In this document: positions 27 to 60,100 of the stretch, piece by piece
Layout: each line of letters opens with the position of its first letter
Position numbering within the stretch: the stretch's first letter is position 1
NCBI RefSeq assembly: GCF_008831285.2
Contig: NC_045138.2
Span: forward strand, 7,159,205 to 7,223,204
Direction: 5' to 3'
Length of the DNA stretch: 64,000 nucleotides
Source: Nymphaea colorata
Lineage: Eukaryota; Streptophyta; Magnoliopsida; Nymphaeales; Nymphaeaceae
The notes under the pieces: generated by a model
Told to the model about the DNA's origin: nothing
Databases searched by the model: none
The model's input: the letters and a program-made list of their open reading frames with translations, nothing else
Program-made: the position numbers and the translations under genes

Positions 27-1993
27 ATGAACCTAAACCATCAAAACCAAATGACCAACTCGACTACCATCAACCCACGACCAAACCAACAGCCTGAGCA
101 ATCACCCATTCCCACACTCACTCCCTCACCACCCTCCACTGCTCCCACCACAACAACTGAGTTGTTTAATCCCTGCAATCTCCCACTTCCAAGTGTCACT
201 ACCCACCCTTTAGAACTCCCTTCCCCTCCTACACATTCCTCACCACCATCATTCCCTACTCTCACTGACATAGCCACCATCCCTTCACCCACCACCACCG
301 CACACTCATCCTTAAGCCCTCCACACTTACCGCTCACCATACCATCCGTCTCCATACCCTCTCACACACATCCCATGATCACAAGATCCATGACCGGTCA
401 TCTCAAACCTAAAACTTGTATCACCATTCAGTCCCAAACATCTGCCAATACCCATGAACCTGTTACTTACAAGGAAGCCTCTCAATCTGCCACTTGGCGA
501 CATGCCATGGATGCCGAGTATCGAGCTTTGCAGGAAAATCACACATGGGACTTAGTTCCTCATCTAGATCATCTTCATGTTATTGGATCCAAGTGGGTCT
601 CCAAGCTGAAATACAATTCTGATGGCACAATTGCTAGACATAAAGCTCACCTCATGGCCAAAGGTTATCTCCAAGAAGCTGGTGTTGATTTCAGTGAAAC
701 GTTCAGTCCTGTCATAAAACCAACTTCTATACGCATGCTTATCTCCTTGGCCGCTCAGTTCAAATGGGATATTCGCCAGCTCGATTTTGATAATGCTTTC
801 TTAAATGGCATTCTCACCGAGGAAGTTTATATGGTGCAGCCTCCCGGTTATGAAGACCCCAACAAACCAAATCATGTGTGTCATCTTATCAAGGCCCTAT
901 ATGGCCTGAAGCAAGCACCACATGCCTGGTACCTGCGCCTCAGTAACTTCCTCCAACACTTGGGATTTAATGTCTCCACCTCGGATCCCTCTTTATTTAT
1001 CTCTCAAGGATGCCAAGCCTTTGTTCTTGTCTATGTTGATGACATCTTGGTAACTGGGCCATCTAACGAGGTAATATCAAAGGTTATTCAAGAACTCAAA
1101 CAACATTTTTCCATCAAAGATATGGGTCGGTTGTCGTATTTTTTAGGAATTGAGGTTATTTATCAAAATGACTGTATTTATCTAAGTCAAAGGAATTATC
1201 TCCTCAATATCCTTAAACAAACACACATGGAAAAGGCCAAACCATCACCTACACCCATGAGCACCACCCACAAGCTACATAAGGATGGTATTCCATATAA
1301 CAACGATACCTTCTACCGAAGCGTCGTTGGTGCGCTTCAATATGCCTGCTTCACCAGACCAGATCTCTCCTTTTCAGTCAACAAAGTATGTCAATACATG
1401 CATCAGCCTACAGTTGATCACTGGAAAGCAGTCAAAAGAATTATGCGATATGTTTAAGGTACTCTTCACTATGGTTTGTGCTTCAAATCGACCACGTTTC
1501 CTCTCACTCTTCAAGCCTACGCTGATGCTGATTGGGGAGGTTGTTTGGACGACAGGAAGTCGACAGGCGGATGTGTGATATTTCTTGGAGGAAATGCCAT
1601 TTCATGGTTTTCAAGAAAACAATGAACTGTAGCTTTATCTAGCACCGAAGCTGAATATAAATCTCTAGCCGGAGGCGTTGCAGAATTACTTTGGAATCAG
1701 TCCTTACTACAAGAATTTGGCTTAAAACCAACCACGGCTCCCATACTTTGGTGCGATAACATTGGAGCACTTTATTTGGCTACCAATCCAGTCTTTCATG
1801 CTCGGACCAAACATGTGGAAATCGACTTCCACTTTGTTCGAGACCATGTCAACAAAGGACATACCAAGGTTCAATTCCTAAGATCAAATGAACAGGTTGC
1901 TGATGGTTTAACAAAACCATTGAATATTATTCTACATCACCAATTCATGAACAATTTGAACGTGCTTGATTACACGCTCAAATTGAGGGGGCA
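27..1993 (+). pseudogene. Copia pol: reverse transcriptase and RNase H, two nonsense codons
   Basis: This is the polyprotein segment that copies element RNA into DNA. Residues 1-130 of the visible frame are a Pro/Ser/Thr-rich linker. RT follows, with the AFLNG motif near 262, KALYGLKQAP near 289-298, and the catalytic YVDDILVTG near 340. After the TAA at 1455-1457, which falls where copia proteins normally read Y-L-K-G-T, the same frame continues through RNase H motifs (DADWGGC, RKSTGG, STEAEY, ADGLTKPL). A second in-frame stop, TGA, lies at 1623-1625. Apart from the two stops the frame is unbroken from position 27 into the LTR, so decay is recent or mild. The upstream protease and integrase are outside the window. 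The family assignment is firm; the exact protein end is not. Confidence 0.88.
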
Positions 1994-2287
1994 TGTTAAG
2001 GCTAATTGTCCAGCCGTTGACACCAACTATGTCAAGAATTGCTGTCCAGCCGTTGCAAATAAAATGGCAGATCCAAATCGACAGCCAGCCTCATCAACAC
2101 GCAATCACAGGGATACAACATCCGCGGTTACGTGATAATCCTTCCAGATTGAATCATTTCCATATCAGTATTCTTAAATGTTTATCATTATTACCATAAC
2201 TTACAATTGTAACATACAAATGAATGTCAATATAAAATGAGTCGAACCTCACACGTTCAAGTGTGAAAGGAGATATTATATTCTTCA
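1994..2287 (+). repeat. 3' LTR of the first copia element
   Basis: It starts with TGTTAAGGCTAATTG directly after a purine-rich tract (ttgagggggc), as expected for a 3' LTR. The right end is set at a CA near 2287 but could lie some 40 bases further. The mate LTR is outside the window, so the boundary cannot be confirmed. Confidence 0.5.
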
Positions 2288-2289
2288 TT

Positions 2290-2660
2290 ATCTTGTTTTC
2301 TGATAATTTTATCCAACCTATTCTCATCAGTGAGCTTCTCTTCCTCTATATCGTCTGCTTCTGTGTGTACATACTGTAAACCCCTCACTCTCGGTTCCAA
2401 CCTAAAGATTTTCCAACCTAAAGATCTTGTTTCCGGCGATGGTGAGGATCTTAAGGGAGCTGTTGTTCTTGTCGAGAATGCCGAGGGCGTAAGTGCGGGG
2501 CTGGAATAGAGCACCTTCACTGGAGTAGTTGTTGCCTACGAAATCGACGCCGGAACCAATGTCGAATCCGGAAGGGAAGTAAGCGACGAAGGGGGCGACC
2601 TGAACCTCCACCTCGGGGACGACGTCCACCTTCAATTCCACGGTCTCCCGCCATCTCCTC
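2290..2660 (-). pseudogene. Fragment resembling RNA polymerase I subunit RPA49
   Basis: Read on the minus strand, this gives a protein with blocks I associate with the N-terminal part of plant RPA49, a Pol I subunit: PFVAYFPSGFD, VDFVGNNYS, TYALGILDK and NKIFRLEPRVRG, then an acidic stretch (EADDIEEEKLTDE). Two defects are visible. A 16-bp tandem duplication (2395-2410 and 2411-2426) repeats the codons for KIFRLE and shifts the frame. The spacing between PSGFD and VDFVG also looks shorter than I expect for the family, suggesting an internal deletion. There is no start ATG and no downstream gene body. It is wedged between two copia elements, so it is a relic. The identity comes from motif memory, not from a search. 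Confidence 0.5.
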
Positions 2661-2880
2661 CTGCCAATTAAAAAGGAGCAGGAAACAGAGGTGTTGAATT
2701 ACAAAGCTGATATTATGGATTGCGATTCAATGAAGAATTGAGCTGAACTTGCTGTCGTTCGGGTCTTCATAAATCCCCCTAATCATAAGCATCTTTAATC
2801 AAAGGAGAACGGTAGAAAGAAGCGATGCAACAAGTTATGCCAACAAGTTTAATATCTTAAGTCCATATTATATCCATCAT
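2661..2880. other. Unassigned spacer between gene fragment and second copia element
   Basis: I see no coding signal, LTR end or tandem repeat. The left boundary of the next copia element is not recognisable, so part of this may be its degraded leader. Confidence 0.4.
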
Positions 2881-2928
2881 TCAGATGGACCAGATCTCCG
2901 TCAACAGGTCCATCTTATGTAATTTTTA

Positions 2929-3260
2929 ATGGGACTCAACGATAGTTATGCAGGTATTAGAAGTCATCTCTTATTAATGGATCCTCTTCCAACCATGGCC
3001 AAGGTGTACTCTTTTCTCATCCAAGAAGAAAAACAAAGAGACGTCAATATTATTCAAAATGATGGAAAGACTTCTATTCTTGCTGTTCAATCCCATGATG
3101 GAGACAAACGCAATCAAATCAAGGAGAAGGGAAGACTTCGACTAAAATGCGAGCATTTCGGGAACTCGGTCACATCAAGGCAAAGTGTTATTTCCTCGTT
3201 GGTTTTCCTAACAAGTCAAGTTCTTCCAATGCACCAACAAGGCCGAATGTGAACGCCACA
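2929..3260 (+). pseudogene. Copia gag remnant
   Basis: MGLNDSYAGIRSHLLLMDPL followed by KVYSFLIQEEKQR matches the C-terminal part of copia gag (UBN2-like). A cysteine/histidine cluster follows near 3140-3190 (CEHFG, then GHIKAKCY in a second frame), which is the remains of the CCHC zinc knuckle split by a frameshift. Gag forms the particle that packages element RNA. Confidence 0.75.
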
Positions 3261-6200
3261 AGGTCCCCTGCTATCGATCAGTCCCAAACTCAGCTATTTC
3301 AAAAATTTCTTGAGTTCATGGAAAACTCAAGTCGAGGTACCAATGACCCCAAAATAAATTTTTTAGGTAAGCTCCCACCACTCATTTCATGTGCCACAAC
3401 CAGCCAATCATGGAGACTTGACACTAGAGCAAAGCACCACATCACCAAGGCTTTATCTAACCTTGACCAACCCGTAACCATAAATCATCCACCAATTAGT
3501 CTACCCAATGGCTTTAAAACTTCCGTCTCACATATAGAGGATGTGATTATTTCTCCCACCATTACTCTAAAAAATGTTTTATATGTCCCAACATTTAATT
3601 TCAATGTCATTTCCATGCCTAGGCTTTGTAGTGACTCAAAATTGGATGCAAAGTTTAATGAGAACTTTTGTCTGGACCATCACTCGACGACTACAATTGG
3701 AATGGGTAGACTGAAAATGGGTTGTACGTCCTCAATGAAGAAAGAGTTGCTGTTAGCACAACCACAACCAAACCTATAAATTGGCATCTCAGACTTGGGC
3801 ATGCTTCCAATCCCAAACTTCTGACGTTATCTCACTTGGAACTCATTGAATCCTATATGCCATTTGATAATTGTGATACTTGTTTTGCTACAAAAAGTAC
3901 AAGAAATCATTTTCCAATTAGTTTCATCTCTACTCATGCACCTTTTGAATTGATTCACTGTGATGTTTAGGGAGGCTACTAGATAGCTTCATTAAGTGGC
4001 ACACATTATATCTTAACAATAGTAGATGATTTCTCTCGATCTACGTGGGTCTCTCTTATGAGACACAAATCTGAAGTTTTTTGCATGATTAACACCCTTA
4101 TAGAAAATCAATTTCAAACAGGAATTAAAATTATTAGGAGTAATAATGGGACTGAATTTTTTTCTCAAGATATGCAAAATTTTCTTCATGAAAAGGGCAT
4201 TAATCGTCAACATAGTTGCATTGCTATACCACAACAAAATGGAGTAGTTGAACGCTAGCATCAAGATCTTTTTAACATGGCTCAATCACTTCATTTCCAA
4301 GCAAATTTGCCCATCAAATTTTGGGGAGAATACATTACTACAACAACTTATTTTCTGAATAAGTTGCCCACCGATGCACTTCACAATAAAATGCCCTATG
4401 AAATCTTGTTCAAAAAAGCCCCCAATTACAAACACTTCTGCGTGTTTGGATGTCTATGTTATGCTCATAATGTTTACAAAAAGCATAAATTTGATATGTG
4501 TGCAAGAAGATGTATCTTTCTTGGATACCCATATGGACAAGCGGCATATCAAGTTTATGATCTTTAAAACAATGTTTTGTTCACCAGTAGGGATGTTCAT
4601 TTTTGTGAAGACCATTTTCCTTACAAAAATGAAAATATTACTAATGGAGATGGAATGGTAGTGCTTCCCTTACCATTCAGTGATCAAATTTTAGGCGAGC
4701 ATGAGATCTTCTCAAATCTGGCCCAACACCAAAATCTCTCTATTCCTAATTTGCAAACAAACCATGACCACCACAATATTCAACCTAGTGATGAACTAGA
4801 CAACCAAATCCAAGATACTAGTAATGTCAACACAAACACCACCAATGATTCTATTCAGCTCTGTAGGTCTTCCCGCCCAAGACATATGCCCAATCACCTT
4901 AAAGACTACAAGTGTTTTTCTACTCTACCCATTTCTAACAAGTTGTTACTGAGTGATGGTTCAACAATAACAAAAGGTACACGTTATCCAATTGCTTCAT
5001 ATATTGATCATTCCAATTTCACCTCCCATTATCAATGTTTCATGACTACCCTACTTGAGCAACTTGAGCCTTCATCTTTTTCCCAAGCTATGCAGGACCC
5101 AAAGTGGCGAGAAGCCATGCGTGTTGAAATCAATGCATTGCAAGAAAACCAAACTTGGACCGTCACCAAGCTACCTCTCGGCAAAACCCCCATCGGTTGC
5201 AAATGGGTATTCAAGATCAAATACCAATTTGATGGATCAGCTGAAAAATACAAGGCCTGCCTTGTTGCCAAAGGATACTCTTAGACTAAAGGTGTTGATT
5301 ATAATGAAACCTTCGCTCTTTTTGCCAAAATTTCTACCATCCGCTGTTTGCTTGCCCTTGCAGCCATTTAAAAGTGGCATCTATTTCAGGTCTATGTTAA
5401 TAACGCATTTCTTCATGGCGACTTGGTAGAAGAAGTGCATATGCAGTTGCCACCTTGTTTCATTCGACAAGGGGAGAAAGATATGGTATGTCGATTGAAG
5501 AAATTAATTTATGAACTTAAACAATCGTCATGAAATTGGTTCTTTAAATTGACAACATTTTTCAAAAGTTTGGGTTTTTCTCAATCAAAGGCAGATTACT
5601 CATTGTTTTCCAAAACTACGACTAGAGGAAGCATATTTCTAGTGATCTATATTGATGATATAATTATTGCAGGCAACGACTTATTGGGAATCAAGAATAT
5701 CAAATATTTGATGAATGAGAAATTCAAGTTAAAAGACTTGGGGAAGCCTAGATGCATGCTCAACATTGAAGCTGCAAGATCTGAAAAAGGTATATTTTTA
5801 TCTCAAAGTAATATCTCCACAATATTTTACATGAAATAGGCTATATGGGAGCAAAACCATATGACTCTCCTATGGAACAACACTTGAAGCTTGATAATGA
5901 AGAAGGAGAGGTATTCAAAGATGCCAGTCAATATAGAAAAATCATTAGTAAGCTCATATATTTGACTATAATTAGACCCGATATCGTACATACGGTACAT
6001 ATATTAAGACAATTTATGAGCAAACCCTGCATCCCGCACAGAGAAGCGATGAATCACCTTCTAAAGTACCTAAAGGGAACTGTAGGTTATGGGGTATTAT
6101 TGTGTTCAGAAAGTGCCATCCAACTTAAGGCATATTGTGATTCAGATTGGGTATCATGTCCCATGACTCGAAGATCAACAAGTGGATATTCCACTATGAT

Positions 6201-6600
6201 CAACAACAGTCCCATTACATGAAAAACTAAGAAGCAAACAACAGTTTCTAGGTCTTCTGCTGAAGCTTAGTACTGATCCATGGCACTTGCAACATGTGAA
6301 TTCACATGGCTTAAAGCTCTCCTACAAGATTTTGGGATATCTCACATGCAACCGATCACTTTATTTTGCAATAATCAAACTGCAATGCACATAGCAAACA
6401 ATCCTGTATTTCACAAGTAGACCAAGCATATTGAAATTGGCTGCCACATTGTTAGAGACAAAATTCTAAGTGGAGAGATTCAAACTCAGTTTGTGCCCTC
6501 CTCTCGGCAAGTTGCAGACGTATTCACTAAGTCACTAGGACGGGAAGTGTTCCAAACATTCAGAAGCAAGTTGGCACTCTTCAATCCAGGAGCGCCAACT
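3260..6600 (+). pseudogene. Copia pol remnant (protease, integrase, RT, RNase H), multiply broken
   Basis: Segments in order: protease-like (RLDTRAKHHIT near 3415-3450); the pre-integrase block (NWHLRLGHAS near 3779-3810, DTCFATKSTRNH); the integrase core (IVDDFSR near 4020, RSNNGTEFF near 4140, QQNGVVER near 4240); RT N-part (WREAMRVEINALQENQTW near 5105-5160); RT catalytic YIDDIIIAGND near 5650-5680; and RNase H (SRSSAEA near 6250, ADVFTKSLGRE near 6520-6545). Stops occur at about 3968, 4257, 4565, 5282, 5837, 6220 and 6268, with several frame changes. The region is a fossil. It ends at the purine tract cttgaaggggag, immediately before the LTR. Confidence 0.85.
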
Positions 6601-11145: not shown

Positions 11146-14100
11146 ATGCACCAAAAATTGATGACCAGGTAACTTATCTCATTTGAAGTGTGCACATAAG
11201 CACTTGACCTCCAAAAAATCAGCTTAGAAATTTGTTTTTCCATAAAAATGAGTTTTTTAGGCACCAAAACAAAGTTCCTATCTGATCTTTCATGTCTTCC
11301 AAATGGATTTCACATTGCCCCAAGTTGGGAGGTACCATATTAACAATCTTTTCTCCCACAAGTAGAAGCTTCAAAGATTCACCTCTCTAAAAGATTAAAA
11401 ACATGCTTCTTTTTTTCTAAGCTTTTATATGCTTAGGTGCCTAATGTTGGGTGACCCAATATCAACATCTAGATATCTACTTAAACTATAACAATGAGCA
11501 GTGAGGTTATGAGAAGGCCAAATCTAGATGGGTCATAGTAAGATATTGAAGGGTGCCTACCATACTGCAATACTCTGTTGGATCTTGATAGGAGTTCATG
11601 GATCCTTGAGAAAGAGCCTTTGATGTCCCCTTGGGCGTAAACATGGGTTTTGATCCAAGCATTTTGCCTTGATGTAATAAATCAAGGGCATACTTTTGCT
11701 AAGGCAATATAAGCCCTTGTGATGTCTAATGAACTTCCATGCTGAGAAAATAACTTAGATGTTGAAGATCTTTGAGAGCAAATGTGGAGTTTAAGTGCAT
11801 GATAAGAGAGGTAATGAACATTGTATTATTGCTAGTCAGTAATATATCATCCACATAAACTAAAACATAGCACAAAATGTATTTCTTTTTAGCACAAAAT
11901 GTGACTTGTCTATTTTAGAGGAAGCAAATTCAAATGATGCAAGAGCATATGCAAGTTTCTGGTACCAAGCTCTTGGAGCTTGTTTTAAACCATATATGGC
12001 CTTGCAGATTAAATTAGATCCTTTTTCGAATCATTGATATTGTGCCATGTATACAGTTTCTTGAAGATCCCCATTTAAGAGGACATTATGAACATCTAAT
12101 TGCCGGATAGGCCATTTGAAGCTAACTGCAATAGAGATGGGAAAATAGAAGGTAGTTGGCTTAACCATAGGATTGAATGTCTCAAAATAATCTATTTTAG
12201 CATGTTGAGTGTACCCTTGAGCTACCAATCGTGCTTTACTACATTCAATAGATTCATTTACCTTTCTCTTAATCTTTTACATCCATTTGCATTCAATAAT
12301 ATTATGCCCTGCATGCTTGAGAACTGGAATCCATGTGTGATTTTGAATCAATGCATTATATTCTTAGGTCATAGCATCATTCCACTGACTATATTTTCAG
12401 GCATACTTGTAGAAGCACAGTTCATTTAGGGTCATATTGTATGTTATAAAAACACATGGTAGAAGATGGACTGATGACATGTAGATTTTGGCTAGACGAA
12501 TCTCATTCATGGATCAATAATGCTTAGGCATAAGACCAATAATGCTTAGGCATACAAGAGTGACTCATAAGACTAAGTTCTGTCTCAACAATATGTGGAT
12601 GCTTTCTTTCTGCAGCATTGTTTTTGCTCATGTGTGTGTATGCAAGATATGCAGTGAGTAATGCCTTGAGCTTCTATATGTGTTTTGAGTCCAATACATT
12701 CTTCACCACCATCCATTTGCAATATTTGATTTTCTTTTCACATACATTTTCAACTTTTTGTTTGAAAATTTTGAATACATCAAGGACTTTTGATTTGCAT
12801 GATATGAAATAAATCTATGAATACTTTGAGAAGGCATCAATGAAATGCACATAATATTTTTGCTTGTTTAGGCTTAATATGGGCAAAGGCCCCTGCATGT
12901 CAGAGAACACTAACTCAAGAGGTGTAGAAACAGAATGAATGGAAGAGCATATGCTTTTCCTCTTTGACAATCAACACAAATATTGTTCTCAAATGCTCCA
13001 TAATGTGGTAAACTAAAATGCTGAAATATCCGTCGCAGAACTTTATAGGCGAGATGGCCAAGGCATTGATGCCATTTGTCCAAGGAGACCTTCTGCCCAG
13101 TGTATGCTGCCTTATTGCCTGTGTGCAACTTATTCAAAGTTCTATCTTCATCAAACTTCAGAACATAGAGTGCATCATGAACATGCCCTTGCATGAGTTC
13201 TTTCTTGGTTGTTTGATCCTTCACAATACAAGTATTCAGGTAAAACTCAATGAAAGCATCATTATCAATAGTAAATTTTTGGACATAAAGTAAATTCTCA
13301 TAGTTGACACATGAAGAATGTCCTTAATAAAAAACTTAGTATTACAAATCTGAAAATATGAAAAGCCAACAGTATGAATAGCCAAATCTGACCCATCACC
13401 AATGCAGATAGATTCATTGCCATCATAGGTTCTGTGAACGCTCATGGAGTTAAGGTCATTTGCTATGTGGTGTGATGCATTAGAGTTTGGGCACCAATAA
13501 GCATCGCCCATAGAGGAAGTCATCACGTGGTAAGCACAAAGAAGCGAAGAATTTGAAGATGAAGAAGATGCTTGATGCCTAGCCTGCTTGTTCGGAGGCT
13601 TGATCTTGAAACAAGTTTTTATTGAATTACTTGTTTGATCATAATATTGACATATAATTTTACCTTGATGCCCCTAGTTTTTCTTCCCACCTTCGCCTAT
13701 AGAAATTTGTGGCTTTGAAAGGATTGAAACTTTTTGTACCATTCTTATTGGCATTGTTCATGGTAGGACCAGTAAGAGATTCCTCATTTTCCATATCAAC
13801 TAACTGAGATTCTTACGTAAGAAGTAAAACATGCAACTCTGTCAAAGAAATAGGATCTACTCTACTAGTAATAGAGGTCTTAAAGGCTGCATATTCATGA
13901 GGTAATGCTCTAAGAATGTGAAAGGCAATATCTTCTTCACTAACCATCTTTGACGCCATTGACAATTGGTTATTTATTGTCTTAACTCTATGAAAAAGTT
14001 CATCGATTGTTCATGGGTGATTCTTGAGAGTAGACAATTGTTCTTTTAACTGGAGAACTTTGCTTGAGAGTGGACAACATAAATGTTTCTCAAAGCACTC

Positions 14101-29810: not shown

Positions 29811-29872
29811 CCGACTCCATCAAACACAGACATGCCTCCCCAAACATCAGCTTCTCTGTGAAAGCCACGACA

Positions 29873-30447
29873 ATGGCATCTTCCCTCCTTCCAAACTGCT
29901 CCACCACCATCTTCCTCTCTTGCTTCCTCTTCCTTCTTGCTGCGGCCGTGGATGCCAAACTAGTTCATAGTCAAAGAGTACTCAGCAGGCCGCTGAAGGA
30001 GAAGATGTCCCACCTCCATTTCTACTTCCACGACATCGTCAGTGGCCGGAACCCGACTGCCGTGACAGTCGCCGGAGCAAAGAACAGCACCTCGCTGACG
30101 GGCTTCGGGGATATTGTGATGATCGACGACCCCTTGACGGAAGGGCCGGAGTTGTCCTCCAAACTGGTGGGAAGAGCCCAAGGGCTATATACGCCTCGGC
30201 AGGGCTGCAGGACCTGAGCTTGCTGATGGCAGTGAACTATGTGTTCATGGAGGGGAAGTACAATGGCAGCAGCTTGAGCATTCTGGGGAGGAACACGGGG
30301 ATGCGGCCGGTGAGGGAGATGGCAGTGGTCGGCGGCAGCGGTCTGTTCAGGATGGCCCGTGGCTACGCCGTTGCGAGGACTCACTGGTTTGATGCAAACA
30401 GGGGAGATGCCACAGTAGAGTACAATGTCTATGTCGTCCATTATTAG
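29873..30447 (+). pseudogene. DIR: Dirigent protein gene DIR1, frameshifted by 2 bp
   Basis: Nearly identical to DIR4 (58356-58928). The ATG at 29873 starts the same signal peptide (ends AAAVDA) and dirigent domain: HLHFYFHDIVSG, GFGDIVMIDDPLTEGPELSS and KLVGRAQGLY. At about 30186-30191 the DIR4 bases ggctgtacgcc are ggctatatacgcc here, an extra 2 bp, so the frame runs into a TGA at 30215-30217. The remaining 75 codons are intact in another frame, from LLMAVNYVFMEGK to EYNVYVVHY and a TAG at 30445-30447. All other conserved positions survive, so the mutation is recent or a sequencing/assembly error. If it is an error, this is a fourth dirigent gene. Dirigent proteins act in the cell wall and steer the stereochemistry of phenoxy-radical coupling. 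Confidence 0.85.
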
Positions 30448-30561
30448 TTAGAAGAAGCCATTGCCGATCACATGGAATCCTGAAATCTCAATTATGACTC
30501 TTGTAGTCAGTTGGGTTGGGTTTGTTGTTCATTCTGATTCCCATTTTGCTTATACAGTAAC

Positions 30562-30943: not shown

Positions 30944-31124
30944 TAAGGCAACGTTTGATTGCAAGGGAAAACACTATTTATCGAGGTAAAGTTCACTTTC
31001 TTGTACGGTTTTTCCGCTTGCCATCAAACGTCGAAAATGTTACCTCGAAAAAATTGTACGACAAGGGAGATTTTAATGCGGAAATTTTTTCCAGGGATTT
31101 TTCTATGAGCCGTTAGGGCTCTCC

Positions 31125-31330
31125 TCGCTTTGCTCCTTCTCACTGCTCCTCTCCCTCTGTCGAAGCCTTCTCCGCCGTCGAAGCCCTCTCCTCCTATCAG
31201 TGCTCCTCTCCCTCTGTCGAAGCCTTCTCCGCAGTCGAAGGCCTCTACCTATGTGGAAGCCCTCTCCCCTTATCGTTGCTCCTCTCCCTCCGTGAAAGAC
31301 CTGTCTTCTATTGAAGCCCTCAGAATTGCT
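31125..31330 (+). repeat. Degenerate C/T-rich tandem repeat inside the PIF/Harbinger-like element
   Basis: Repeats of tgctcctctccctctgtcga and gaagccctctcc, related to gaagccttctccgc. It keeps an open frame by its repetitive nature (Ser/Pro-rich). I take it as captured 5' untranslated or other cargo, not a gene. Confidence 0.6.
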
Positions 31331-32389
31331 ACATCTGTTGGGGAAGCCCTCTCCTTCTCACTATCTTTTTTCTCTTCCTCCTTCGCGCTGCGTGTGGTTG
31401 GAAGAAGTAGTGTTTGTCCCATTCTGGTGAGTCTCTTTTCCACCTTTGCTTCAATCCCTCTTTATTTCCATCTTTGTTGCAATCCCTCTTTACTTTTTCC
31501 TCTTTCTAGACTTGTCTTGGATGTTCTTAGACTCTCAACCTTAGCTAACCTGCTCATGTGGACCAACTAAATTGTGCAACGGCTCTAAAGTTGGAAGCAC
31601 TCTGATGTACAGGATCTTCAATCTCTGGATACCTTCACTACTTGGATGTTGTCAATGAGTTCGGATTCTACACCATTTTCTTGTTCATGCCACTCCATCA
31701 GTATAAACTTAGAATCCTCTAGTTATATATCAGCAAAGTCTTCTAGACACCATTGTACATCGCAAAGTTTGAATAGTAATGCTTTTCTGTAAATTTCTCT
31801 CCCTTTTTGTGGTGCTTCTTATGTGTCAGCGATTATGCTAAACAACTAAGCAAGCCCCTTAACAGTAAAAAATGTCACCAGCTAACATATTAGAGAAACT
31901 AAAAATTAAATTTCAGATGGTAGAAATTGCAAATTAGAGATCTACAATATTTATAAGAGCAGTAGCTCACGAAGTATCCATCACAGTCTGATGACTTCCT
32001 ACCAGTCTCCAATAAAATTGGCATGATGAGCATTGAAAAAGCACCAATCTTGTCTAGAAACTGGCAAACATGTTTGCCTTTGGCAGCCACGTGAAAGTTT
32101 GGAAAGCTTTCCAGTGGTTAGTGTCTGTCCAAAAATTCTCATAATATATAGACTTCAGTTCTCATTCACATAAACCCATGATATGCACCTGCAAAAGGGC
32201 AAAAGCTGAGCTGTACACGATCTCAGAGTAAAACAATCATCAAAGCCTTTGGTAAGAATTATGTCTGGGACCTGTTAATTTAATCTCTGCCCCACTGTAA
32301 AACAATCATCAACATGCTAATGAATCTTCCTCCACCATATGTGATTCTGCATCCTTATTGATCCTTTAACCTGTCATTTTGATTTTCAG

Positions 32390-32879
32390 GCTGCCAAACA
32401 TCCACCAAGAGGTGCAGCAGCGTAAGATATTGTATATGGGTCTTTATCTGCTTATCTGGGGTGAGGCTGCAAACCTTCGGTTCATGCCAGAGTGTCTTTG
32501 CTACATTTATCATTTTGTAGGTGTACTTTTGCATACATTGCATGTTGGTTTTGTAAATGTTACACTAGTCCTGCTTCCTTTTCTAGTACTTTGGTACATT
32601 TTACCTATGATTTTTAAGGTTTTTTGTTTACTTGTCATTATAGTTCCCATTCTTTCAAAATCTAATATTAGTTGGCTAATCTACAAAGTGAATATTACAC
32701 AAATTTTTTTTCAGTAATTTTATGCATGCTGTTGTTTGCAGATGGCTTTCGAACTTTATGGAATGCTTGCTGGCAATGTGAGTCCAATGACAGGTGAAAC
32801 TATAAAGCCCGCTTGTGGTGGTGAGGAGGAGGCCTTTCCGAAAAAAGTGGTCACACCAATCTATGAAACAATTGCACAG
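32390..32879 (+). pseudogene. Two captured exons of a callose synthase (GSL/CalS) gene
   Basis: Exon a, 32390-32516, is preceded by TTTTCAG and followed by GTAGGT. It encodes QEVQQRKILYMGLYLLIWGE and ANLRFMPECLCYIYH. Exon b, 32742-32879, follows TTTGCAG and ends CAG|GTTTAT. It encodes MAFELYGMLAGNVSPMTGE and VVTPIYETIAQ. Both end in phase 0 and join in frame. These are highly conserved blocks of plant callose synthases, large plasma-membrane beta-1,3-glucan synthases of about 1,900 residues; they come from the N-terminal cytoplasmic third. The rest of the gene is absent, and no stop or frameshift interrupts the two exons. They are cargo of the surrounding element. Whether they are transcribed is unknown. 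Confidence 0.88.
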
Positions 32880-34224
32880 GTTTATCGCTGTATCTATTTG
32901 TTCAGATGCTAAATGAAATCTATATGTTTATTCCACCCAAGTTTCTCTATAATCCGTCTTCTATTTGATCTTGTCTTGCATAGCCATTTTATTTCTCTCG
33001 TGCATTTAAAAAGATGTATCTGATATGCATAATTGTTACGTGAGGAGATGATATCCTTTAAACGGTAAAAAAAAGTTTCCTTGAAAAAATTTTTCTGTCT
33101 ATCAAACTAGGCATTTTTTCTCCTTCAAAAAAGTTCCAGGCCATCAAACATGACCTGAAACAAGAAAAAGAGAATTTTACCCTCCTGTCAGTTACCATGG
33201 AGATTTTACCTTTGAAAAAATTCCCCCTCAAAAAAATCCAAGCCTTCAAACGTGGCCTAAGTGAAAGGAAGGACGACTTAGATTGGGATAAAAAAAGAAC
33301 AGGACTGCATTTTTAGTTGTTTATTTTCTTCACCTCCTTATTCATTCATCTTTCCTTTTGCCATCCGTATGCACACGCTAAATGCTTGGCGAGTACGGTT
33401 CCATAACTGTTCCTCCTCAATGGAGAATGGGTTTGGATCCAGACACTATGTAGCCAATCTGAATCAATTAAAAAGGTTGTCCTTTCGCCCTGTCCATTAA
33501 CCGAGCAACAACGGTTACTTTGCTTTTATCATAAAGCCATGTTTGAGAGTCTTGGATCTGAGATTTGAGGGTGATCCTAAATCCAAAGTTTAAACAACGG
33601 TTACATTACGAAAACACTGATATGTTCGATTTTTTTTTCCCTTTTTTCCTCCTTTTTAATGGCCTAAGAAATGTTCCCCCTCCTCTCTTTCAAACGCCTA
33701 CACTTTCTCGTTCTCTCTCTCTTCTCCCTTTTTAATGGCCTAAGGAATGTTCTCTCTCCTCTCTTTGAAACGCCGACACTTTCTCATCCTTTTTACCTGG
33801 TGGTCCTCTAAAATTGACGACTTGCCCGTTCTCCTCAAACTCTTTGAGGACAGCAAGGTCTACCGGTTTAATTAGTCCATCAATATTTAAAAAAACATGA
33901 TTTTCTGGCAAAAAAAATGTATAACATTATATATGTATATTTTTTCAAAAGAATCAGCATCCTTCAAATTTTTTGATTAAAATAGTCTTCTCACGAACCT
34001 TGATTTATAATATTAAAAGTCAAAAAAAATAAAATTGAACAAATAAATCTAAGAAACAACCATATAATTATATATAAATATTATATATATATAATAAAAA
34101 TATATATTTCACCACACCCCACACCCGTTTTCTGGAATGTGCTCAACATTGATACTGCATCTACATGTACACATTCCGAGACTCGCATTTCCCACCCATC
34201 CATGTAACATATTGACTATCCTTT

Positions 34225-37759: not shown

Positions 37760-38556
37760 GTTTGATTTTGACGGAAAAATGTTATTTGGTGCATTGTGCA
37801 CAGCCCCTAAAACCATGACATATTGACTTCTAGCCCACTTTTAAAATGATCTTTGCTCAGGTGTCATGCCCAGACACACATTTAAATTATACATAGGTTT
37901 ATGCATATAACCACATTTAAATTACAAAGTAAAACCAAAATTTTTATTTAAACATCCTAATAAAAAGATTTGAAGCAAAAAGGTTACTTGGTGCATTGTG
38001 CATAGCCCCCAATGCATGATATGAGGACTTCTAGCCTACTTTTAAAATGGTCTTCACTCAGGTGTTATGTTCAGCACACATTTGTATTATGTATAGGTCT
38101 GTGTATATAACCACCTTTAAATTACCAAAGTAAAACCAAAATTTTTACTTAAACATTCTAATAGAGAGATTTGAAGGTAAAAGGTTACATGGTGCATTGT
38201 GCACGGCCCTCAATGCATGACATGTGGACCTCTACCCCACTTTTAAAATTGTCATGGCTCGGGTGTCATGCCCAGTCACACATTTGTATTGTTCATAGGT
38301 ATGTGCATAGAACCACCTTTAAATTAAAAAGTGAAACCAAAATATTTACTTAAACATCTTAATAGAGAGATTTAAAGGTAAAAGGTTACTTGGTGCATGG
38401 TGCACAACCCTCAATGCATGACATGTGGACCTCTAGCCTATTTTTAAAATGGTATTGGCTCAGGTGTCATGCTCAGTCATACCTTTGTATTGTGCATAGG
38501 TCTATGCATATAACTACCTTTTAAATTATAGAATTGAAACCAAAATTTTTACTATC
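37760..38556 (+). repeat. 201-bp tandem repeat, four copies
   Basis: The phrase ggtgca.tgtgcacagccc starts copies at 37788, 37990, 38191 and 38392, giving periods of 202, 201 and 201 bp. Each unit also carries cacttttaaaatg and ccaaaatttttact. The paralogous 3' flank of DIR3 (48350-48430) lacks the array, so it expanded after, or was lost since, the DIR2/DIR3 split. Confidence 0.88.
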
Positions 38557-51849: not shown

Positions 51850-53760
51850 GGAGTACATTCCTCTAATGAAACTCCTATGGATTCGCAAGACACTAAAAAT
51901 GAAGGAGTATCAATAGATGCTCAAGAAGCACGTGTAATTGGTGCAAAAAGATCAAGAGCAAAGACTTATACAATACAGAATGATTTTGATGAGGTAATTA
52001 TAAGTGGTATGAAAAAAGACAAATGTAAGCACTGCAGTACACTATTATTTATGATAAGTACAGGAGGATCTACATCATCAATGTGTGTTTAACATGTTTT
52101 GCTAACAAAAAACAAGCGATTTTAAGTTTTAAATTCGAAAATACTTTAGATGTCACAAAGAAGCTTATGAAAATGGTTCCAACATTGATGTTTAATCAAT
52201 AAGAAAGACAACTGCAAAATTAGTGGCAACAGGAGAGCACACTTTTTATATAGTGGATAATTGTTGGTTTAGGTTCCTTCTTAAGCTTGGTTTTCCTAAT
52301 TGGGTGCCAGTTTCAAGAATGGCAGTTAGGAAAGATGTCATTAAATTGTATGAAGATGAAAATAAGAAATTGAAAGAAGTCTTGAAGGGTGTTGATAAGT
52401 TTGCTTTGACTACAAATATGATATATGACGTTAACAACACGATAAAGAGTGGAATACAACAACGTATCATCAACTTTACTGAAGTTGAGCCACCTCATAT
52501 TGGGTTGGTTTTATTTAATGTAATTGCTAAGCATCTTGCAGATTGGGAGATTGAAAAGAAAATATTACAGTTGACAACACTTCATCAAATGATGTTCTTA
52601 TCAGAAAATTAAAAGAAAACATGGAAAAAGCGGCGTCAACTTATATTATGGAGGTTTTTCATGTGCGATGTTGTGCACATATTTTGAATCTGATGGTACA
52701 AGTTAGTTGAGTGCCATTGAAGATGAAATCATTAGCATTAGAGATGCAATAAAGTATATCAAAGTTTCACCTTCAAGACTCCATGATTTTGTAGTTGTAA
52801 CTAGAGGGTTAGAAATTTCAACGACAAAGAAGTTAGTGTTAGATGTATCAACTCGATGGAATTCAACATATTTTATTGTTGGAAACAACTCTTGCATATA
52901 AAGATGCTTTTGCAAGATATAGCATGGAACACCCATGCTTGATATGGTTTATTGGACGTGAGGATTGAGAAAAAAATAGCAGTAATGTGTGATTTTCTTC
53001 AAGTTTTATATGATTTTGTCTCCACCTTATTTTCTGGGTCATCTTATGCAACAACGAACTTGTATTTTCTTGAAATTGGGAGAGTTCAAGAAATATTGTA
53101 GGAAAATGTTGAAAATGAAGGTGGATTTATGAAGGCAATGGCAATGCAAATGAAAGAGAAAGTTGATAAATATTGGAAATCTTGTAACTTGTTAATGAAC
53201 ATTGCATCCATTTTGGATCCACAGGGAAAACTCACATTATCAAAATTTATCATTTCAAAAATCTACCAGTCAAGAGAAGAAAAGAAAGAACAAATGGAAA
53301 TGATAAAACAATCTTGACAAGATGTTTATGAAACTTACATTCAAAGAATGGAAGTGGTTGCTAATATTTCTACCATATCAACTAATTCCTCCAATATTCA
53401 AGGTCGAGAGAGTCGAGACACACTACGCGGTAGGAGAAAGCTATTTTTTAAGTTCTTAGGTAAAGCTGAGAATGTTGTTTTTCAAGTCACCAAATCTGAG
53501 ATAGACACGTATTTGGAGGATGGATTGATTAAGCATAATGATAATGGTGATGAAGATTCTATTAATATTTTGCAATGGTGGAAGGATAAGGAATCCAAGT
53601 ATGAAATTCTTTCAAAAATGACACGTGAACTGTTGTCAGTTCCAATAACTTTTGTTGCTTCTAAAAAAGCTTTTAGTATAGGAGATCGAATTCTTAATGA
53701 TAGTCGTAGTTCATTGATACAAAAAACAGTTGAAGCTTTGGTTTGTTTGAATAATTGAGT
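51850..53760 (+). pseudogene. hAT transposase remnant
   Basis: Pieces in order: a BED-like zinc finger (CKHCSTLLF near 52024-52050, without clear histidines), then the RICESLEEPER-type core in several frames (LGFPNWVPVSR near 52280, STRWNSTYF near 52848-52875, SILDPQGKLTLSKF near 53205-53250). The C-terminal dimerisation domain follows (LQWWKDKESKYEILSKM near 53570-53620, VPITFVASKKAFSIGDRIL near 53638-53695, SSLIQKTVEALVCLNN to 53755). In the last domain Lys-Lys-Ala-Phe replaces the usual Ser-x-Ala-Phe. Stops at 52090, 52610, 53315 and elsewhere show that it is inactive. Active relatives excise and insert hAT elements as dimers. Confidence 0.82.
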
Positions 53761-58293: not shown

Positions 58294-58355
58294 CCGACTC
58301 CATCAAACACAGACATGCCTCCCCAAACATCAGCTTCTCTGTGAAAGCCACCACA

Positions 58356-58928
58356 ATGGCATCTTCCCTCCTTCCAAAATGCTCCACCACCATCTTCCTC
58401 TCTTGCTTCCTCTTCCTTCTTGCTGCTGCCGTGGATGCCAAACTAGTTCATAGTCAAAGAGTACTCCGCAGGCCGCTGAAGGAGAAGATGTCCCACCTCC
58501 ATTTCTATTTCCACGACATCGTCAGTGGCCGGAACCCGACTGCCGTGACCGTCGCCGTAGCAAAGAACAGCACCTCGCTGACGGGCTTCGGGGATATTGT
58601 GATGATCGACGACCCCTTGACGGATGGGCCGGAGTTGTCCTCTAAACTGGTGGGAAGAGCCCAGGGGCTGTACGCCTCGGCGGGGCTGCAGGACCTGAGC
58701 TTGCTGATGGCAGTGAACTATGTGTTCATGGAGGGGAAGTACAATGGCAGCAGCTTGAGCATTCTGGGGAGGAACATGGCGATGCGGCCGGTGAGGGAGA
58801 TGGCGGTGGTCGGCGGCAGCGGTCTGTTCAGGATGGCCCGTGGCTACGCCGTTGCGAGGACTCACTGGTTTGATGCAAACACGGGAGACGCCACAGTAGA
58901 GTACAATGTCTATGTCGTCCATTATTAA
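58356..58928 (+). CDS. DIR: Dirigent protein (DIR4), intact single-exon gene
   Basis: 190 residues, the same length as DIR2. The ATG at 58356 fits TATA spacing and paralogue alignment. Signal peptide about 1-28 (hydrophobic 12-26, ending AAAVDA). Dirigent motifs: HLHFYFHDIVSG (47-58), GFGDIVMIDDPLTDGPE (77-93), KLVGRAQGLYASAG (97-110), MAVNYVFMEGKYNGSS (118-133), GGSGLFRMARGYAVARTHW (153-171), EYNVYVVHY (182-190). Sequons are N71-S-T and N130-G-S. It differs from DIR1 at only a few residues (Asp for Glu in LTDGPE, Val for Gly in VAVAK) and lacks DIR1's 2-bp insertion. Expected to be a secreted, cell-wall dirigent protein guiding radical coupling; the partner oxidase and product are unknown. 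The reading frame is fully open, so this is the second likely functional gene. Confidence 0.93.
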   Translation: MASSLLPKCSTTIFLSCFLFLLAAAVDAKLVHSQRVLRRPLKEKMSHLHFYFHDIVSGRNPTAVTVAVAKNSTSLTGFGDIVMIDDPLTDGPELSSKLVGRAQGLYASAGLQDLSLLMAVNYVFMEGKYNGSSLSILGRNMAMRPVREMAVVGGSGLFRMARGYAVARTHWFDANTGDATVEYNVYVVHY

Positions 58929-60100
58929 TTAGAAGAAGCCATGGCTGATCACATGGAATCCTGAATCCCAAATATAGCTCTTGTCAGTTGGGTCGCGTTT
59001 GTTGTTCTTTCTTATGCCCATTTTGCTTATACAGTACCAAGTCTTTTAGCACCTCTCTCTCTCATTGATTAAGTGTAAAGTGTTTCATAAATTCACTTCA
59101 ATATTATGGTAAATTCTTGAAACAAGTATCATATTAATGTCCTCCAAATTTTAAAGTAAATTCATGTAACGTTTACATGATGATCTCGGACTTTAAAATT
59201 GGAGTAAATTGTAGCACATTAGAAAATGTGTCCCAAGAATGTATTTAAATTTTGACAATGTTCTCCTTGCCAAACACTCTCCCAAAGTACCCATCAAACA
59301 GAAAAAGTAAAGTGAAAGGAGGGACGACTTAGATTGTCGTTCTTGACCTTATTCATGTTGTTCATTCATCTTTCCTTTTTCCATCCCTTTTTCCATTTTT
59401 CATCCGTACGCACGCGCTAAATGCCTGGCGAGTACGGTCCCAAAACTGCTCCCTCTCCATGGAGAATGGGTCTGAATCCAGATCATATGTATCCAATTTG
59501 AATCAATTAAAACGGTTGTCCTTTAGCCCTGTCCATTAACCGAGCAACAACTGTTACTTTGCTTTTTATCATAAGCCATGTTTGAGAGTCTTGGATCTGA
59601 GAGTTGAGCGTGATTCTGAATCCACTTTATGTTAAACCCACTGCTTAAACAAAAGGGAATTTCTCAATTAGAGATCTTAAATCTGTGTTACATTATGAAA
59701 ACCACTGGTATGTTCAATTTTTTTTTCACTCCATTTCGATCCATTTTCTTTTTTCTTTCTCTTTCTCTCCCTTTTTAGTGGCCTAAGAAATGTTCTCTCT
59801 CTTCTCTTTGGAACGCCTACACATTCTCATCCTTTTTACCTGGTGGTCCTCTAAAATTGATGACTTGCACGTTCTCCTCTTTGAGGACAGCAAGGTCTAC
59901 CGGTTTAATTAGTCTATCAATATTTTTAAAAAATGATTTTCTGTTAAAAAAAGGTAAATGTATAACATTATATATGTATAATTTTTTTAAAAAATCAGCA
60001 TCCTTTAAACTTTCGGATTAAAATAGCCTTCTCATGAAACTTGATTTATAATAATAAAAGTCAAAAAAATAAAATTGAACAAATAAACAGAAACAGCCAT

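Follow-up and report, generated by a model that had tools for sequence, protein, structure and literature searches.

Positions 30947-33257 of the window are a non-autonomous PIF/Harbinger element of the Pack type, and its interior consists of pieces of three unrelated host loci, located on contigs C4, C12 and C9. Judging from its sequence, template switching, in one run or in several, is probably the origin of this mosaic. The window is the whole stretch of 64,000 nucleotides analyzed (C1:7159205-7223204 of Nymphaea colorata), and the genome searched comprised 407.8 Mb in 783 contigs.

The element is flanked on both sides by TAA (30944-30946 and 33258-33260), as the preliminary description of this DNA had reported. 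Its inverted termini, GGCAACGTTTGATTGC and GGCCACGTTTGAAGGC, are indeed imperfect, with 13/16 identical positions (11/14 over 14 bp), and carry the G(N)5GTT motif at both ends. In the whole window, 8 of the 164,888 TAA-flanked pairs located 200-5000 bp apart reach a 13/16 match, and the seven pairs other than the element do not have the G(N)5GTT motif. When TWA and G(N)5GTT were demanded on both sides at distances of 80-25,000 bp, 19 pairs were found in the window, and only the element exceeded 11/16. Concerning the subterminal copies of the terminus motif, also mentioned in that description, they are present at 31020-31035 and 33140-33155, but their count is not above chance (five matches in the window, a mean of 3.03 in shuffled sequences, and 21 of 100 shuffles reaching five). 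Neither the left hairpin nor the right direct repeat was reached in any of 300 shuffles. Past about 16 bp, the best local score between the two ends was reached by 24 of 300 shuffles; the ends are unlike beyond this point because they belong to two sequence families. No other match to the element was found inside the window at an E-value of 1e-3.

The empty target site is located in the paralogous block B of the same window, where a single TAA stands uninterrupted at 59308-59310, just as had been claimed. Block B reads AAAAAG-TAA-AGTGAAAGG at this site, and block A reads AAAAAGATAA, the element, and then TAAGTGAAAGG. Homology to block B restarts at 33259, with 76% identity over about 1 kb. Since blocks A and B can be aligned to the left and to the right of the insertion, the limits of the inserted DNA coincide with the element ends to within a few bases.

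The noncoding flanks of both blocks are identical at 787/1012 and 195/239 positions, which is a difference of 18-22%, whereas only 3.7-8% separates the mosaic from its donor stretches, most of which is noncoding. An origin of the mosaic after the A/B block duplication is supported by this comparison if the rates were similar, and so is the earlier proposal that the element moved into block A after the duplication. Under the same assumption, block B would represent the pre-insertion site. Tourist/PIF elements excise precisely as a rule (PMC4561436), and block B could have carried the element and lost it in this way, so that the empty site would not be a pre-insertion site; considering the two ranges of divergence, this seems most improbable. 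The other dirigent copies of the window gave no evidence of polarity, as their alignments stop short of the insertion site.

Regarding the genes next to both sites, the block A dirigent gene (29873-30447) contains an insertion of 2 bp near 30186 as well as a premature stop, and the block B copy (58344-58928) is open along its full length. The dirigent coding regions of both blocks (29861-30450 and 58344-58931) are identical at 570 of 590 positions (97%), compared with 78-82% in the noncoding flanks, pointing either to gene conversion or to strong constraint. Downstream of a dirigent gene there is a tandem array (37767-38553) whose unit measures about 202 bp. The window also contains a remnant of a hAT dimerisation domain (53318-53758; PF05699, E = 2.5e-23) and two retrotransposon remnants, read as copia-type (1626-6222 and 12910-13673), with RVT_2 above the cut-off (4568-5284) and Pol_BBD just below it (13236-13673).

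The assignment to a superfamily considers the ends, the duplication and the transposase of related elements. The whole-element search of the genome gave at least 43 matches, and the best 40 of 126 candidates were scored, so the counts given here are lower bounds. Among the matches listed, 32 of 43 (window copy included) run at least as far as element position 2313, one base short of the last one (2314). In a set of 12 right-end loci outside the window and C2 copies, the end always lies within one mismatch of GGCCACGTTTGATGGC (nine are exact), and TAA or TTA follows directly in 11 of them. Both ends were recognized by motif in seven of the 14 oriented loci, the other seven presenting no recognizable sequence for one or both ends. 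The target site duplications were equal in all seven complete cases, an equality that mainly concerns TAA against TTA, given that the search was preset to TAA or TTA on the left and to TAA, TTA, TAG or TTG on the right.

Copies with the same termini, which the preliminary description had proposed to look for, exist elsewhere in the same genome, and some of them bear a transposase. Pfam identified DDE_Tnp_4 and Plant_tran in three long relatives (L029, L034 and L035) which carry the family ends, and Myb_DNA-bind_3, a Myb/SANT-like domain, in L034 and L029; two of the shorter pieces scored just under the Pfam cut-off and one piece had no match. The DDE transposase and the Myb-like reading frame characteristic of PIF/Harbinger are found in long members sharing the ends. 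For the window element itself, the eight non-callose frames tested had no Pfam match at all, and accordingly none to a transposase domain. PIF/Harbinger termini are described as inverted repeats of at least 14 bp with G(N)5GTT (PMC2213677), and such termini are present, imperfect in the window element and identical at 16/16 positions in its C3 relative. The 3-bp TAA/TTA duplication is present too, with its single TAA in the empty site. Because ends, duplication and transposase agree, the family is assigned to PIF/Harbinger. It should be added that L033 and L034 are stretches of element sequence, each about 7.7 kb long, on C3 and C8; their matches to the C3 Pack element have nearly equal offsets and identities, which suggests that they are near-identical copies.

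Mutator-like elements duplicate about 9 bp of their target site and have long terminal inverted repeats, whereas this element has a 3-bp duplication, 16-bp termini and ends without further similarity. The Pack-MULEs of rice are non-autonomous elements carrying host gene fragments; the element described here shares this feature, although it belongs to another superfamily.

The best-defined piece of the interior comes from a callose synthase gene. Two exons with correct splice borders had been proposed, and both were recovered on the plus strand at 32390-32516 and 32742-32879, each preceded by AG and followed by GT; once spliced, they give 88 codons without a stop. Their identity as callose synthase exons agrees with the match of the joined exons to the Pfam profile FKS1_dom1 (E = 2.9e-24, for a query carrying one additional residue where the exons meet). 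The frame of the first exon alone is also above the Pfam cut-off (E = 4.9e-16), and that of the second one alone, with 21.1 bits, stays under the cut-off of 27. The parental gene, sought in the same genome, was found on C9, and the joined exon translations of this locus match FKS1_dom1 with E = 2.1e-40, reaching position 100 of the profile versus 74 for the captured exons. Two further pieces of the C9 locus had no Pfam match, and we take them to be callose synthase as well. No callose relatives were found in viral_contigs and genome_contigs.

The main callose synthase fragment covers 32327-32882 on the plus strand, and its donor lies within C9:11957368-11958028. It retains the parental intron (32517-32741, plus strand), with 207 of 224 aligned bases identical to the C9 gene, and also part of the intron preceding the first captured exon. 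At the sequence level, these retained introns demonstrate capture as DNA, in agreement with the earlier proposal that a genomic, intron-containing piece had been taken. The homology is confined to the element, as expected for a captured fragment; it ends at 32882 and does not reach the flanks. Next to it, there is a 27-bp filler (32883-32909, plus strand) common to the four Pack-callose copies found, whose donor sequence was not found. Two residues of the captured exons were considered as signs of decay and rejected, since the parent gene carries both.

To the left of this fragment, the element is a succession of pieces of different origin. The left arm (30947-31509, plus strand), labeled here family I, matches L016, L017, L018 and L019, and contains the left terminal inverted repeat, a subterminal inverted repeat, a GC-rich repeat stretch at about 31109-31430 and a GTGAGT at 31427. 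L017, which measures 1231 bp, is an element flanked by TTA at either end, with termini identical at 14/16 positions, and L016, the partner used for the left arm, is a family relative and not the donor copy. The stretch 31109-31430 is also CT-rich, with imperfect repeats spaced 57-76 bp and the GTGAGT at its end, and may be the promoter or the first exon of the element.

After the left arm there is an F-box/LRR gene fragment (31508-31861, plus strand), including the last six codons and the 3' flank, with its donor at C4:13719081-13719433 and 324 of 352 ungapped positions identical. The next piece (31860-32245, minus strand) matches C12:15136821-15137192 and just beyond, with 335 of 348 ungapped positions identical. 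On C12 an Arm-repeat coding region is located less than 3 kb from this stretch, on the other strand, and the stretch is presumably an intron of an ARABIDILLO-like gene. The window copy has lost 53 bp of it which are kept in the copy on C2. Then, 40 bp identical to C9 (32244-32283, plus strand) contain the end of the preceding callose synthase exon and its splice donor, and are followed by a return to the C12 template for 30 identical bp (32283-32312, minus strand) and by a second return, further back, for 23 identical bp (32309-32331, minus strand). The order at this seam is thus C12, C9, C12, C12 again and C9. The right arm (32910-33257, plus strand), labeled family II, includes the inner terminus-like copy at 33140-33155. 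Regarding the definition of Pack-TYPE elements, host gene fragments lie between the terminal inverted repeats, their three donors are elsewhere in the genome, and the captured DNA occurs in more than one copy, the mosaic on C1 and C2 and the callose part on C3 and C14.

The joins analyzed were those for which the sequences of both donors, or of a close relative in the case of the left arm, were available. The six joins overlap by 2, 2, 2, 1, 4 and 5 bp, which sum to 16, and the overlap between the left arm and the F-box fragment is AG. With random breakpoints within 300 bp (100,000 draws), the expected sum has a mean of 4.27 and a standard deviation of 2.44, and values of 16 or more appeared in 31 draws. 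Taken one by one, four joins are not unusual (fractions of 0.17, 0.17, 0.18 and 0.45), and the other two have fractions of 0.02 and 0.006. The case for template switching is therefore based on the overlap sum and on the interleaving of the pieces, and not on single joins; microhomology at the joins and the return to the same template are both found.

A published model for plant elements of this kind is the fusion of neighboring insertions, put forward for Pack-CACTA and then widened to further DNA superfamilies (PMC8903248), in which two PIF elements inserted close by would mobilize the intervening DNA with their outer ends. The left and right ends of the window element, coming from different sequence families, would agree with it. 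However, the DNA between two insertions is one continuous locus, and this interior, which comes from C4, C12 and C9, the last two interleaved in pieces of 23-40 bp, contradicts the fusion unless the donors were once contiguous. The single continuous captured locus of Pack-CACTA elements is not what is seen here, with three contigs and interleaved pieces. For these reasons fusion is considered very improbable, and break repair with template switching fits better.

The mosaic occurs a second time on C2, where it is flanked by TTA at either end and has the same joins but different flanks. In the first 2250 columns of their alignment, both copies agree at 2079 of the 2139 ungapped positions. The same mosaic at two loci implies that it was made once and moved later, and that it did not arise from a misassembly of a single place. 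The C2 copy has a shortened right end, for which an internal deletion and the use of the inner terminus are equally possible; the proposal that this copy ends at the inner terminus was dropped, as the alignment fits the deletion equally well.

Two sister elements contain the callose sequence with the family II right arm and also the family II left half. The sister on C3 (L010:2752-5320) measures 2569 bp, has termini identical at 16/16 positions and is flanked by TTA on both sides; for the sister on C14 (L012, the same locus as L043), a left end with a matching triplet was not found. In the C3 sister, family II pieces in their native order alternate with two foreign pieces from elsewhere (L031, L032), before the callose part. 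Matches to the two foreign pieces of this sister lie at C4:24865384-24865739 and C7:6368817-6369243. Among its five joins, read by eye, three share 1-4 bp, one has a short filler and one has a few unmatched bases.

All four Pack-callose copies found have the same join at the right of the callose sequence and the same 27-bp filler, and hence the right callose part has a single origin. Exon 2 also presents three silent differences from the parent that are common to the four copies; these were dropped as proof of one capture, since a later change in the parent explains them equally well. The callose part begins at the same parental base (position 4577 of L011, reversed) in the window, C2 and C3 copies. 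This border thus occurs in both architectures, for which the trimming of a non-homologous tail is the one explanation offered here, and this counts against the proposed formation.

The shared sequence and the seams are consistent with a formation in two stages. In the first one, a family II element would have lost its interior, and the gap would have been filled with the C9 callose piece, a form that would survive in the C3 and C14 sisters. In the second one, as suggested by the seams, the callose-bearing element would have broken to the left of the callose piece. The broken element may have paired with the parent gene, with its non-homologous tail trimmed at the border, and this pairing would also place the repair beside the parent gene, as the source of the 40-bp piece. 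Synthesis would then have proceeded leftward with switches at short homologies, to C12, to the 40 bp of C9, to C12 again and to the C4 F-box locus, ending with a join to a family I left end; the order and the direction of these switches are those that we infer. The hybrid ends would have stayed usable, and the mosaic would have moved at least once to give the C1 and C2 copies, presumably mobilized by the family transposase in trans.

Whether the left half was made in a single switching run is evenly balanced. Several separate gap repairs, each closing a fresh break in an element that could already move, are a possible but less favored alternative, which competes with the single run only and not with template switching itself. 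The divergence from the donors is uneven, with 28/352 differences in the F-box fragment versus 13/348 in the C12 stretch, and this argues against one capture event for both unless the rates of the donors differ; the alternation of native-order family II pieces with L031 and L032 in the C3 sister also points to separate repairs. On the other hand, the short pieces of C9, C12 and C12 lie within 88 bp, are identical to their donors and look like one event. Among the matches of the genome search there was no intermediate between the stages, and a nearer donor or an intermediate may still exist. In a broader reading, which is slightly favored, this plant would have a PIF/Harbinger lineage that gathers unlinked host genes through repeated repair of breaks, with template switching guided by microhomology, and that swaps one end for an end of another PIF family and stays mobile.

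Furthermore, the captured exons could be functional, with a chimeric or antisense transcript acting on callose synthase or yielding a new product. In the window copy the splice borders are intact, the 88 codons have no stop, and the predicted splice donor GTGAGT at 31427 would join the exons in frame in one of three frames. Nevertheless, no ATG was found in that frame between the last stop and the exons, and in the C2 copy the second exon has an altered last base. The exon changes not common to all copies are six replacement and three silent ones, leaving out the indel at an exon end of the C3 copy; one of the silent changes is CAG to CAA in the first exon of that copy. Although the numbers are small, these changes do not look constrained. 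A working role is accordingly rated as improbable, and the best explanation is that the captured exons are passengers.

Pack-PIF elements and the capture of intron-bearing genes by PIF are already known, and what is new is the record of the formation. In grapevine, Pifvine-3 (PMC2528002) likewise comprises PIF elements with host exons and introns and mostly TAA/TTA duplications, but its family has transposase copies, and the parts of that paper considered here give no base-resolution joins. In maize, cluster 18 of Zm-Pack-PIF (PMC8903248) is also a short non-autonomous PIF with fragments of more than one gene and several copies, with captures of 163 bp in 72 elements and of a further 58 bp in four of these. 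That cluster, like plant Pack-TYPE elements in general, is explained there by the fusion of neighboring insertions, whereas the Nymphaea element has three donors on three contigs with interleaved pieces.

A likeness in mechanism exists with the Pack-TIRs of animals, attributed to gap filling or FoSTeST (PMC8277862), which share the microhomology at the joins, the template switching and the multicopy mosaics that later moved. In that work, microhomology at one breakpoint or at both is given for 67.6%, with lengths of 1-36 bp and a median of 2. However, it deals with animals, and its authors regard an application to plant Pack-MULEs as worth exploring. The gap-repair models for MULEs (PMC4858842) similarly bring ectopic DNA into a plant transposon by repair of a gap or of an excision site, but they are theoretical, concern MULEs and give no base-resolution joins in the sections considered. 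Among the titles and abstract openings listed from the open-licence literature, none describes a plant PIF element in which template switches are interleaved.

The donors, the joins, the second copy, the sisters and the transposase-bearing relatives are all present in one genome, which makes this formation testable join by join, and the seams bear on how such elements gather genes. According to a 2026 review (PMC13317346), a route by which unlinked genes are taken up may still await discovery. If the reading presented here is true, it would provide a route of this kind, listed in that review as possibly undiscovered, by which plant Pack-TYPE elements capture unlinked genes.
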